Of a DNA stretch of 64,000 bases, positions 17,557-20,994 are shown one piece after another. Within the stretch, counting starts at the first letter, position 1. Each line of letters starts with the position of its first letter. The notes beneath the pieces are model-generated. The model did no database searches, was not told where the DNA came from, and saw only the letters and a program-made list of their open reading frames with translations. Source of the DNA: Flavobacteriaceae bacterium (lineage in GTDB: Bacteria > Bacteroidota > Bacteroidia > Flavobacteriales > Flavobacteriaceae); contig JADHML010000001.1 in NCBI GenBank assembly GCA_016780065.1, positions 82,747 to 146,746 of the forward strand, in the 5' to 3' direction. A program made the position numbers and the translations under genes.

Positions 17557-20500
17557 ATGAGTTTTACTTTAGGTCTTACAATTTCTTATAATACCATTGG
17601 ATGGGCATTGATCGACAAAGCGGGTCAAAAACCCAATATTGATATGGGAGTTCGTGTTTTTCAACCAAGTGTTCTTAACATTGGAGAGGGGATTCGAGAA
17701 CAATCGACACACACTCAAAGAACTCATGTAAGACAAATGCGTAAGATTTTTAGAAACAAACGCTTGAGAAAACAAAAACTCCTAAGTTTATTGATCGATC
17801 ATCATTTATGCCCTCTGTCTAAAAAAGATTTACAATCTTGGATAGAAAAAAGACGTTTTCCCCACAATTCCTTTTCTGATTGGTTAGAACTAGACCCTTA
17901 TGTTCTTAGATCAAAAGCGATAAAAGAAAAAATTGAACTTTTTGAATTGGGCCGGATTTTCTATCATATTTCACAGCGTAGGGGCAAATGTTATGTAGCT
18001 AGGGAGAGTCAAAAAGACAATAGGATTTATTTTCACGGTAAGCCACAAATGAATAGAGTAGGTCTTAGAGAAACACTCGAAGCACTAGAAGATGATCAAA
18101 CATTGGGCGCTTATTTGGCAGAATTAAAACCAGCCCATGGTGTGCCTTATGAAAAAAATGACAATCGCATCCGAAACCGTTATTTAGATAGGCTGATGTA
18201 TGTAGATGAGTTTCATAAGATTTACTCGTTTCAGCAAAAGTTTTATCCTGAACTTACCCATTCCGTAAGAGTTGCACTTGGTGGAGTTGAAGGAAGTGAA
18301 AATGATCTCAAAAGTGGTGTGTTGTTTTTTCAAAGACCCTTAAAACCCAACCAAACTTTTAAACGATTTTGCCCTATTGAGCCCAATAAAAAACGTACTC
18401 CTGCCTCACATCCCGAATATGAGGTATTCAAAGTTCTAAAATGGATTAATAGTATTCGTTGTAATGGCAAGCCTTTGAGCACAACTCAAAGAGAAGCGAT
18501 CTTGGATATCCCTTTTCGTTTTTCTCAGTTTTCTTTTAAAAAAATCAGAAAGGCCTTGAAACTTGAAGATCAGACGGTGCAGTTTAATTATGATGACAAC
18601 GACATCATTTCATTGGCTTATTTCTTAGTTCATTTGTCCAAGCCACAGCTTTTTGGAAATCGCTTCTTAAAACAACCTATAGATGAACAAATCCAAACAT
18701 GGCACACCTTGTATTTTTTTGATGATTCCTCCAAAATAGAGGCTCATGCAAAACAGCGTTGGAATTGCTCTGATGAGCAAGCAACACGATTGATCAAATT
18801 ACAACTACAACAAGGTTATGGAGCTTTTAGTTTGAAAGCAGTACGCAAAATCACACCTTTCTTAAAACTTGGAATGCGCTTTGATGAAGCTTTGTTTTTT
18901 GCAGGACTCTCCGTGGCTACAGGTACGATATGGAAAAACTTCTCCTCGGAACAACGAGAATTTTTTGTTAGTGAGTTTTCAAGTTTTATTCATCAAAAAA
19001 AGGAAAAGAGAGACTGGGTAAAGGAAATTAAACAAAACTTAAAGACTCATTTCGAAATTCATCATTTTGATGAAGTCAAATTTTTCAATTACAACCGCCA
19101 TTTGTTATATAAACAGAAAGTGCGATTAGATACGGGGCTTTCTTCAGATCAACATATAAAGAACAAGTTTAAACCCATTGGTCACTCGGCAATTTTTGAG
19201 TTGAGAAAGTTGGTCAATGCGATATTAGAAAACTATGGTGAGATTCAAGAAATCAAAGTATATGTGCGCCCTGTACTTAAAGCCAGTAGATCTTCTCGTA
19301 AAAAACAATTTGACGAGAAAAAACGGAGAGCTGCTTCTCAGCACTACCATTTGTCTGCTGTTCATGAATTGGGTAAAAACCCTACTCATCTTAATATTCT
19401 TAAACACCGTCTGTGGGAGGAATTTGACAGACGTTGTCCCTATACTGGTAAGGAAATAAATATTGATCAGCTATTTACAAACCAAGTGTCTGTGGTACAT
19501 ATATTGCCATGGAATCGGTTTTTTAATGATTCTGACATCAACAAGGCTCTTTGTATGAGTTCCTTTAAACATCATATATCCGACAAAACTCCATGGGAAT
19601 ATTTTTCTGAACAACCTACAGGGACTTGGGAACAGGTTAAAATACGGGTTTTAAAACAGCTATTGAATGTTAATAAAATCTCTGGCATTCAAAAGTTCAA
19701 ACAATTCACTCGATCGAATTATTCACTAGATGCCAAAACTCATGAAATGACAGACACGCACCATGTGAGTTTACATATAAAAAACATACTAAATCAGGTT
19801 TGTGAAAATGTACAAATGACCCTAGGGCATACTACGCACAATCTAAGAGAAAAATGGTATTTGGACCGACTCGATAATTTTTTACACACCGAGCCCATTA
19901 ACGATCAAAGAAGACATGCAATAGACGCTTTGGTTACAGCGGTTAAAACTCCTTTTCTCTTAGATGTATTATCTAAATGGAATCGGTACGAGAACACAGC
20001 TCGGAATGCATCTTTCCCTGCCCCATGGCCAGATTTTAAAAAAGACATACAGGCTGTTTTCGAAACGGTTCAAATAAGTTTTCCTCATCCAAAAAAAGTC
20101 TTTACAGCTACTCACAAAACCTATTACAAAAACAATGAGAAAAGAATTGCGCGTTGTTCTTCGGCTAGAGGACAATTACATAAAGAGTTGTTTTATGGCA
20201 AACGTAAGGCACCAAATGAATTGGATTATAGTTATCATATAAGAAAGCCTATTCATCAAATTCAAACTGCCAAACATGTGCAAAAGATTGTTGACCCTGA
20301 AATTAAAAAGCGTATATATGCTCAAATAGATGCCATGGGAGGTTTTGAAAAAGGAAAAATTCCAAAAAACTGTTTGACATTTATAGATGAAAAAGGATTT
20401 ACCCGATCCAAAATCACATTACCTAACAGAAGAGGCGCGGAAGTTCCTGTAAGAAAAGTACGTATTCGGGAACAACTTGGCAATGCCATACAGTTGCATA

Positions 20501-20994
20501 AGGATGTTAATATTTTTGCCAATTCTCGAAACAATCACCATATATTGATTTATGAAAATATTTATGGAGAATTAGCTCAAAAGGTGATCACTTTTTGGAC
20601 TGCCGTACATAGAAAGAAAAATAAAGAACCTATTTGGCAACTCCCAGATGATGGCCGCCGTATTGTGGCAAGCCTCCATCTAAATGATTGTTTTTTGATG
20701 GGGCTTACCCCTGAAGAATTAGCTAATTGGAAGCTGTTACCAAAAAAACAACTCTACGAACACTTGTATCGGGTACAGCGCATTTCAAACAATTTCTACG
20801 AATTTAGACATGTATTCGACGCAGATATCTATGATACAGCCTATCCGAACTACATAAGAATTTTGAATTTTGGAAAAAGAAAAACAGGATGGAAAACCTA
20901 TAACCCTAAAAAAGTTTATGTGGACAACCTTGGCAATCTTTTTGAATATAAACCTTTTTACAAATCTGTTAAACAACCCCAAAGTCAATCATGA
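17557..20994 (+). CDS. cas9: Cas9-family protein, type II-C-like, predicted nuclease-deficient (natural dCas9-like), orphan
   Basis: RuvC-I GLTISYNTIGWALID; Arg-rich bridge helix THVRQMRKIFRNKRLRKQKLLSLL; HISQRRG; FFQRPLKPNQTFKRFCPIEPNKKRTPASHPEYEVFKVLKWIN; HNH RRCPYTGKEI...VVHILPWNRFFNDSDINKALC...KTPWEYF; RuvC-III RRHAIDALVTA; C-terminal NNHHILIYE...KVITFWTAVHRK...LYRVQRIS. Confidence 0.93.
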   Translation: MSFTLGLTISYNTIGWALIDKAGQKPNIDMGVRVFQPSVLNIGEGIREQSTHTQRTHVRQMRKIFRNKRLRKQKLLSLLIDHHLCPLSKKDLQSWIEKRRFPHNSFSDWLELDPYVLRSKAIKEKIELFELGRIFYHISQRRGKCYVARESQKDNRIYFHGKPQMNRVGLRETLEALEDDQTLGAYLAELKPAHGVPYEKNDNRIRNRYLDRLMYVDEFHKIYSFQQKFYPELTHSVRVALGGVEGSENDLKSGVLFFQRPLKPNQTFKRFCPIEPNKKRTPASHPEYEVFKVLKWINSIRCNGKPLSTTQREAILDIPFRFSQFSFKKIRKALKLEDQTVQFNYDDNDIISLAYFLVHLSKPQLFGNRFLKQPIDEQIQTWHTLYFFDDSSKIEAHAKQRWNCSDEQATRLIKLQLQQGYGAFSLKAVRKITPFLKLGMRFDEALFFAGLSVATGTIWKNFSSEQREFFVSEFSSFIHQKKEKRDWVKEIKQNLKTHFEIHHFDEVKFFNYNRHLLYKQKVRLDTGLSSDQHIKNKFKPIGHSAIFELRKLVNAILENYGEIQEIKVYVRPVLKASRSSRKKQFDEKKRRAASQHYHLSAVHELGKNPTHLNILKHRLWEEFDRRCPYTGKEINIDQLFTNQVSVVHILPWNRFFNDSDINKALCMSSFKHHISDKTPWEYFSEQPTGTWEQVKIRVLKQLLNVNKISGIQKFKQFTRSNYSLDAKTHEMTDTHHVSLHIKNILNQVCENVQMTLGHTTHNLREKWYLDRLDNFLHTEPINDQRRHAIDALVTAVKTPFLLDVLSKWNRYENTARNASFPAPWPDFKKDIQAVFETVQISFPHPKKVFTATHKTYYKNNEKRIARCSSARGQLHKELFYGKRKAPNELDYSYHIRKPIHQIQTAKHVQKIVDPEIKKRIYAQIDAMGGFEKGKIPKNCLTFIDEKGFTRSKITLPNRRGAEVPVRKVRIREQLGNAIQLHKDVNIFANSRNNHHILIYENIYGELAQKVITFWTAVHRKKNKEPIWQLPDDGRRIVASLHLNDCFLMGLTPEELANWKLLPKKQLYEHLYRVQRISNNFYEFRHVFDADIYDTAYPNYIRILNFGKRKTGWKTYNPKKVYVDNLGNLFEYKPFYKSVKQPQSQS

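Follow-up and report, generated by a model that had tools for sequence, protein, structure and literature searches.

Laboratories routinely use engineered dead Cas9, and RNA-guided proteins that bind DNA without cutting it have also been described in nature. TldR proteins, nuclease-dead repressors that originated from TnpB, combine an inactivated nuclease with a single omega-like guide RNA, fixed guides, vertical or domesticated use and a known flagellin target, and they work with 6-nt guides (PMC13418256). Cas9 itself, in a catalytically competent form that also serves in immunity, represses genes by binding without cutting when it is directed by a short fixed guide, as in the case of scaRNA in Francisella and tracr-L in Streptococcus (PMC8730458, PMC11417352), and S. 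pyogenes Cas9 represses a promoter with a crRNA of 11 matching nt (PMC11417352). In the accessible part of the 2025 CRISPR-Cas classification, the only such protein named among the Cas9s is the half-dead, phage-encoded II-C2 variant, which has naturally lost RuvC catalysis and has an apparently active HNH; the same part describes nuclease-inactive Cas12 proteins (V-C, V-M and others), type V effectors within CRISPR-Cas systems that act by binding only (PMC12669027). A published natural Cas9 that is fully dead was not found in the literature searched, a scope outside which preprints and most subscription journals fall.

The locus described here lies in a window (the whole stretch of DNA analysed) of 64,000 nucleotides, from a Flavobacteriaceae MAG of 1.02 Mb that is 58% complete. 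Its Cas9 belongs to a dead clade with subgroups named A (the window's), B, C and D. It shares with the live type II-C systems of flavobacteria (e.g., Flavobacterium, Lutibacter, Cellulophaga) the Cas9 architecture, at ~38% identity, a homologous divergent tracrRNA and a matching 5′ half of the repeat, whereas the live systems keep the complete catalytic set, most of them with arrays, and the dead clade lacks both, lacks cas1 and occupies one fixed locus. As in TldR, the nuclease is inactivated under purifying selection and a guide RNA appears to be kept, but the guide is predicted to be in two parts, and searches of own and related genomes, of little power with such short seeds, gave no conserved target. 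The likeness to scaRNA and tracr-L repression would consist in a Cas9 that binds without cutting under a short fixed guide, the difference being an inactive protein and the lack of an array. Compared with II-C2, as far as the accessible text defines that variant, the dead Cas9 has neither an active HNH nor a phage location and is chromosomal; compared with the inactive Cas12 proteins covered there, it would likewise act by binding only, here as a Cas9 without an array. By analogy we infer that the dead-Cas9 complex works like TldR or like a Cas9 guided by scaRNA or tracr-L. The features of the locus are as follows.

14966..17068, + strand: PpiD/SurA-like peptidyl-prolyl isomerase, constant neighbour on the 5′ side of dead cas9 in subgroups A-C
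17467..17536, - strand: predicted tracrRNA, from homology to the tracrRNA of live relatives and covariation, with putative ends
17536-17522, - strand: anti-repeat, part of the predicted tracrRNA
within 17467..17536, - strand: GGC-GCC nexus-like hairpin and AGAC-GTCT hairpin of the tracrRNA
17493-17476, - strand: terminator hairpin of the tracrRNA, with a T run after it to 17467
17540..17547, - strand: TATATTTG, possible tracrRNA promoter, read from the sequence as fitting the Bacteroidota -7 promoter consensus, TAnnTTTG
17557..20994, + strand: nuclease-dead cas9, 1145 aa, from the uninterrupted ORF, Cas9 profile matches and catalytic-site alignment
21024..21055, + strand: putative mini-crRNA unit 1, guide TTTCGTGAAGTTAAAATT at 21024-21041, partial repeat TATTGTGATTTGAT at 21042-21055
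21098..21129, + strand: putative mini-crRNA unit 2, guide at 21098-21115 with the end TTTAAGTATAG, partial repeat TATTGTGATTTGAT at 21116-21129
21179..21679, - strand: DUF456 membrane protein, constant neighbour 3′ of dead cas9
21757..23914, + strand: small lipoprotein-like protein, RuvC resolvase and HemW-like radical SAM protein, constant downstream neighbours

The earlier note on this DNA had described an uninterrupted 1145-codon Cas9 ORF, and this was borne out by the ORF itself, by a profile search in which TIGR01865 matched residues 4-1127 (416 bits, 3.9e-124), by PADLOC, which also called the protein Cas9, and by matches to Pfam HNH_4 and RuvC_III; domain architecture and profile thus place it in the Cas9 family. 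Among proteins of solved structure, ThermoCas9 and Nme1Cas9 come closest in sequence, and Nme1Cas9 was the top PDB match (E 2e-36) of an AlphaFold model that, at pLDDT 72 and pTM 0.43, is usable at the domain level only.

Alignment with live relatives confirmed the replacements that had been proposed for three acidic positions: the equivalent of D10 is T8 (codon 17578-17580), that of E762 is Y569 (codon 19261-19263) and that of D839, a Glu in the live relatives (motif IEHIHPW), is V647 (codon 19495-19497). H648, the equivalent of H840, and the RuvC-III residues H787 and D790 are retained, also as claimed, the latter two being present in subgroup A and absent from most of the dead clade. The HNH Asn had been placed wrongly, at H673: the catalytic Asn of the live relatives (CYADENRKKGNKT) aligns with K671 (codon 19567-19569), in the same register as against Nme1Cas9, and because of this the caution that a His in HNH could still bind metal falls away. 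Both RuvC-I/II acids and the HNH acid and Asn are gone, which agrees with the earlier view that both nuclease centres look disabled. The intact RuvC and HNH catalytic residues of a type II-C immune system are thus lacking and, judged on its sequence, the window protein is a member of the Cas9 family and not a functional CRISPR-Cas immune system.

From the comparison of its relatives, the dead Cas9 is a deep Flavobacteriaceae clade and not a single mutant. The full catalytic set, DEEHNNHD, was found in 193 of 193 assessable live relatives, and in all 65 dead-clade members of 900 aa or more the HNH acidic residue and the HNH Asn are missing, so that the loss is not a matter of chance. Nearly all of these 65 also lack D10; the exceptions, L047 and L127, keep the equivalent Asp and have lost the E762, HNH and RuvC-III positions. 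The search for clade-wide substitutions suggested by the earlier note was run, and orthologs at 92, 88, 71, 69, 50 and ~40% identity all share the catalytic loss. In a quick tree of sequences from genomes and metagenomes, with dead sequences of at least 900 aa, the 65 dead sequences lie on one side of a branch (SH-aLRT 100) and 28 live sequences on the other, with one state change; since the root is a midpoint, the dead side is a clade only if the root falls among the live sequences. The residue at the D10 position varies by subgroup (T/S/C, H, F, Y or S), as expected once the catalytic sites were free. Strong purifying selection acts on the intact members, the dN/dS suggested as a check being 0.05-0.14 in all eight computable intact pairs. 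Between the window protein and L121 it was 0.090, with every domain below 0.14 (HNH 0.050, WED/PI 0.052), and full length is maintained down to ~35% identity.

The live relatives carry a tracrRNA divergently upstream of cas9 (AATCTTTAATCTTATCACAATAAGGCTATATGCCG...), and the dead loci carry a homologous one in the same place, with the anti-repeat that type II-C systems have. It was found in 43 of 48 dead loci, the other five comprising one decayed copy and contigs that are cut or start at the 5′ end. In an alignment that takes in three live-type sequences, its predicted hairpins covary: 98.9% of cells are paired, five pairs have double changes, and 33 double-change cells were counted, where shuffles gave 10.5 and slid controls 0-1. 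Rfam gave no match within 16900-21400. Between ppiD and the tracrRNA, at 17069-17460 of the window and in the same interval of subgroups A-C, there are more conserved motifs (TTTTTTGCCC; in B, GTAGCA...TGCTAC arms), perhaps a terminator or another RNA.

Array-less crRNA-like units lie between cas9 and DUF456, one in subgroup D and two in A-C, in each of which a guide is followed by the initial 14 nt of a repeat; this partial repeat matches the 5′ half of the repeat of live loci, GTTGTGGTTTGATTAAAGATTAGAAAACACGATATT. The end of guide 1 is AGTTAAAATT in A, B and C, one decayed copy excepted; for guide 2, subgroup A and most of B have the end AAGTATAG, C has GAGAATAG and D has AATAAATATAG. Guide ends are near-invariant across subgroups that are 35-50% identical in protein. 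At the sequence level, the predicted guide RNA has been kept with a conserved guide, as is the case for TldR. The repeat:anti-repeat duplex of the window has a predicted energy of -12.1 kcal/mol, with none of 500 shuffles as stable; the corresponding values are -18.4 in D and -20.9 kcal/mol in live loci. In two loci of group D (L196 and L197) the crRNA cassette is in tandem duplicate between cas9 and DUF456, with identical guides. Hairpins enclosing the mini-crRNAs were discarded, the excess over shuffled flanks being weak for unit 1 (20/23 vs 15.9 expected) and nil for unit 2, and so was TAGTRTTG in unit 2 as a promoter, for which no consistent -33 box was seen by eye. The 14 matches to the crRNA motif on viral contigs are apparently unrelated and attributed to chance.

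In loci with enough flank, the order 3′ of dead cas9 is DUF456 (- strand), lipoprotein-like protein, RuvC resolvase, HemW and M20 peptidase, and the upstream neighbour in subgroup D is a small LuxR-type HTH ORF (GerE 1.4e-4, just under the Pfam cut-off). The cas1 gene was absent from 16 of 16 dead-Cas9 genomes tested, some of them incomplete, and present in the live control G029. No CRISPR array was found in the window or the dead loci, arrays being present in most live loci, and phages, viral contigs and plasmids gave no close relative of dead Cas9, with one 22% match in phage records. The fixed locus, the absence of cas1 and array and the lack of close relatives on mobile elements point to a vertical, chromosomal inheritance of dead cas9. 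The description of the gene as an orphan therefore stands as regards cas1 and the array, and does not hold for the tracrRNA and crRNA-like units.

A conserved target of the guides was not found in the own and related genomes, searches in which short AT-rich seeds give little power and MAGs are incomplete. The 18-nt guides, with up to 3 mismatches, gave nothing above the backward control in the own genome; in the four genus members searched, guide 1 (16 nt, 2 mismatches at most) matched the locus itself only, and the window's guide 2 end TTAAGTATAG matched the locus itself and a few intragenic sites. Across 12 genomes, AGTTAAAATT showed no excess vs the backward control, and the sites read in seven of these had no promoter gene in common. 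For group D, the 18-mer with up to 3 mismatches was in slight excess in G032, with no common gene among the loci read, and two matches of the seed AATAAATATAG, one in G070 and one in G071, lie near the same gene family at positions that are not common. G071 carries four ectopic AATAAATATAG copies (L281, L285, L289, L291), and TG comes next in all of them, just as it does in the guide unit of group D; these could be repeats, a PAM-like signal or chance. In G063 (L240), a porin-amtB pair is preceded by a copy of part of guide 1 and repeat, which was set aside as chance, being unconserved in relatives. Matches of the guide 1 end inside the upstream coaX go with the conservation of the coding sequence, and group C showed none.

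The unit-2 motif was found in 14 of 401 family genomes, from nine genera, and at the same locus in those read. In seven of the 14, cas9 sequence adjoins the motif over the stretch read; in the other seven, the tracrRNA is lost together with the whole or the greater part of cas9, and unit 2 is kept, with 34-38 of 38-39 nt identical to the compared locus against 49-77% in the 120 nt upstream. These seven loci were sampled via the unit-2 motif itself, and clean deletions may be recent; the eroded cas9 remnants of L365 and L368, however, suggest a unit 2 that outlives Cas9 in some lineages. Given this survival, part of the role of the downstream guide element may be Cas9-independent, and of all the observations it is this persistence without Cas9 that most needs an explanation. 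In two Cas9-less loci (L367, 6281-6790; L369, 6701-7078; crRNA motif on the + strand) the LuxR-type HTH ORF forms an in-frame chimera with the last 80-100 Cas9 residues, perhaps a product of deletional decay, perhaps a small protein that is new.

The explanation that we favour, and hold to be rather probable, is that of a domesticated dead Cas9-tracrRNA-crRNA complex with fixed short-seed guides, which binds DNA without cutting it and probably serves as a regulator. The type II-C Cas9 of an ancestral flavobacterium would have lost both nuclease sites, the adaptation genes and the array, and the dead cas9 would have become a vertically inherited chromosomal gene. The cas9 transcript would yield the crRNA-like units from its 3′ end; these would form a duplex with the anti-repeat of the tracrRNA (9 bp, a U-U internal loop and 3 bp) and load into dead Cas9; short seeds of ~8-11 nt would direct the protein to one or few fixed genomic sites, where, once bound, it would block or tune transcription. 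We infer DNA binding and regulation from the support for the dead clade (branch support 100), the low dN/dS, the same neighbours, the covarying tracrRNA, the fixed guide ends, the duplex, the absence of cas1 and array and the precedents for short guides in S. pyogenes Cas9 and TldR; the lack of a conserved target, unit 2 in seven loci without cas9 and the frequent loss or interruption of cas9 speak against it. The selection for programmable binding, here putative, that the earlier note had proposed in place of cleavage gains support from the retained tracrRNA and crRNA-like units, but with guides that are nearly fixed, "programmable" is better read as "pre-programmed".

The persistence of unit 2 at near-perfect identity in loci without intact cas9 or tracrRNA, together with the empty DNA target search, would also fit a downstream unit whose main function is its own, as a small regulatory RNA or a DNA element; dead Cas9 with the tracrRNA would bind, protect or antagonise this unit, the effect being at the RNA level and not through DNA binding. 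We regard this as unlikely, though as the likeliest of the alternatives, because the conserved part includes the tracrRNA-pairing repeat and follows the CRISPR repeat of live loci, the Cas9-less L371 has no unit 1, L035 and L037 have a damaged one, and the sampling and the possibly recent deletions noted above weaken the case. It is very improbable that the protein is a dominant-negative or decoy Cas9 whose interference or regulation is aimed at mobile elements or live CRISPR systems of its own cell: the tracrRNA and partial repeat do match those of live relatives, and the half-dead phage Cas9 II-C2 has been suggested as an anti-CRISPR in the accessible text of PMC12669027, but none of the 16 dead-Cas9 genomes has cas1, and the gene keeps to one fixed chromosomal locus with no close phage, viral-contig or plasmid relative.

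Decay of the catalytic sites first, with the rest to follow, is what a pseudogene on its way out would show. In the window's genus, cas9 remnants were found in G002, G007 and G009 and some other members have no detectable cas9; with G004, these genomes are cases of remnants or loss, and no full-length ORF is present in 13 of 44 dead loci vs 8 of 113 live ones, some of these being contig edges or assembly errors. The earlier note had named frameshifted, decaying orthologs as evidence against its own reading, and several relatives are indeed interrupted or deleted, so that cas9 is being lost in some lineages, but the window's copy is intact. With dN/dS low in every computable intact pair, full length kept in distant members and locus and RNAs conserved, we find a pseudogene still harder to credit than a decoy. 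The least probable of all is that the protein remains a nuclease through an unusual active site formed by H648, H787 and D790, which are left in the window's subgroup, since the four residues listed above are gone from both centres and sister groups lose the remaining ones as well (Tyr for H648; P/N and others for H787/D790) in a protein otherwise conserved.

On a domesticated, guide-bound dead Cas9, a wider proposition has in our estimate about even prospects: that an ancient, vertically inherited dead-Cas9 family in marine Flavobacteriaceae would be a dedicated RNA-guided transcription regulator with fixed mini-crRNAs, a natural CRISPR interference and the Cas9 counterpart of TldR, whose guide RNA outlives the protein in some lineages. 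If so, in a clade keeping a fully dead Cas9, tracrRNA and fixed guides under purifying selection, evolution would have reached the same device as engineered dead Cas9. With such a clade one could ask directly for which genes RNA-guided binding is needed, what the minimum length of a guide is and how much of Cas9 is left without selection for cutting, and it could be a source of natural binders whose PAM and seed rules differ.

Outside the dead clade, the otherwise live Cas9 of L074 (Flavobacterium pectinovorum strain 42) and L077 (a Flavobacterium MAG, UBA7680) has a Val at the HNH acidic position (DEVHNNHD). Both loci have a tracrRNA, with three and one exact repeat-start matches, respectively, and their Cas9 is a possible natural RuvC-only nickase.
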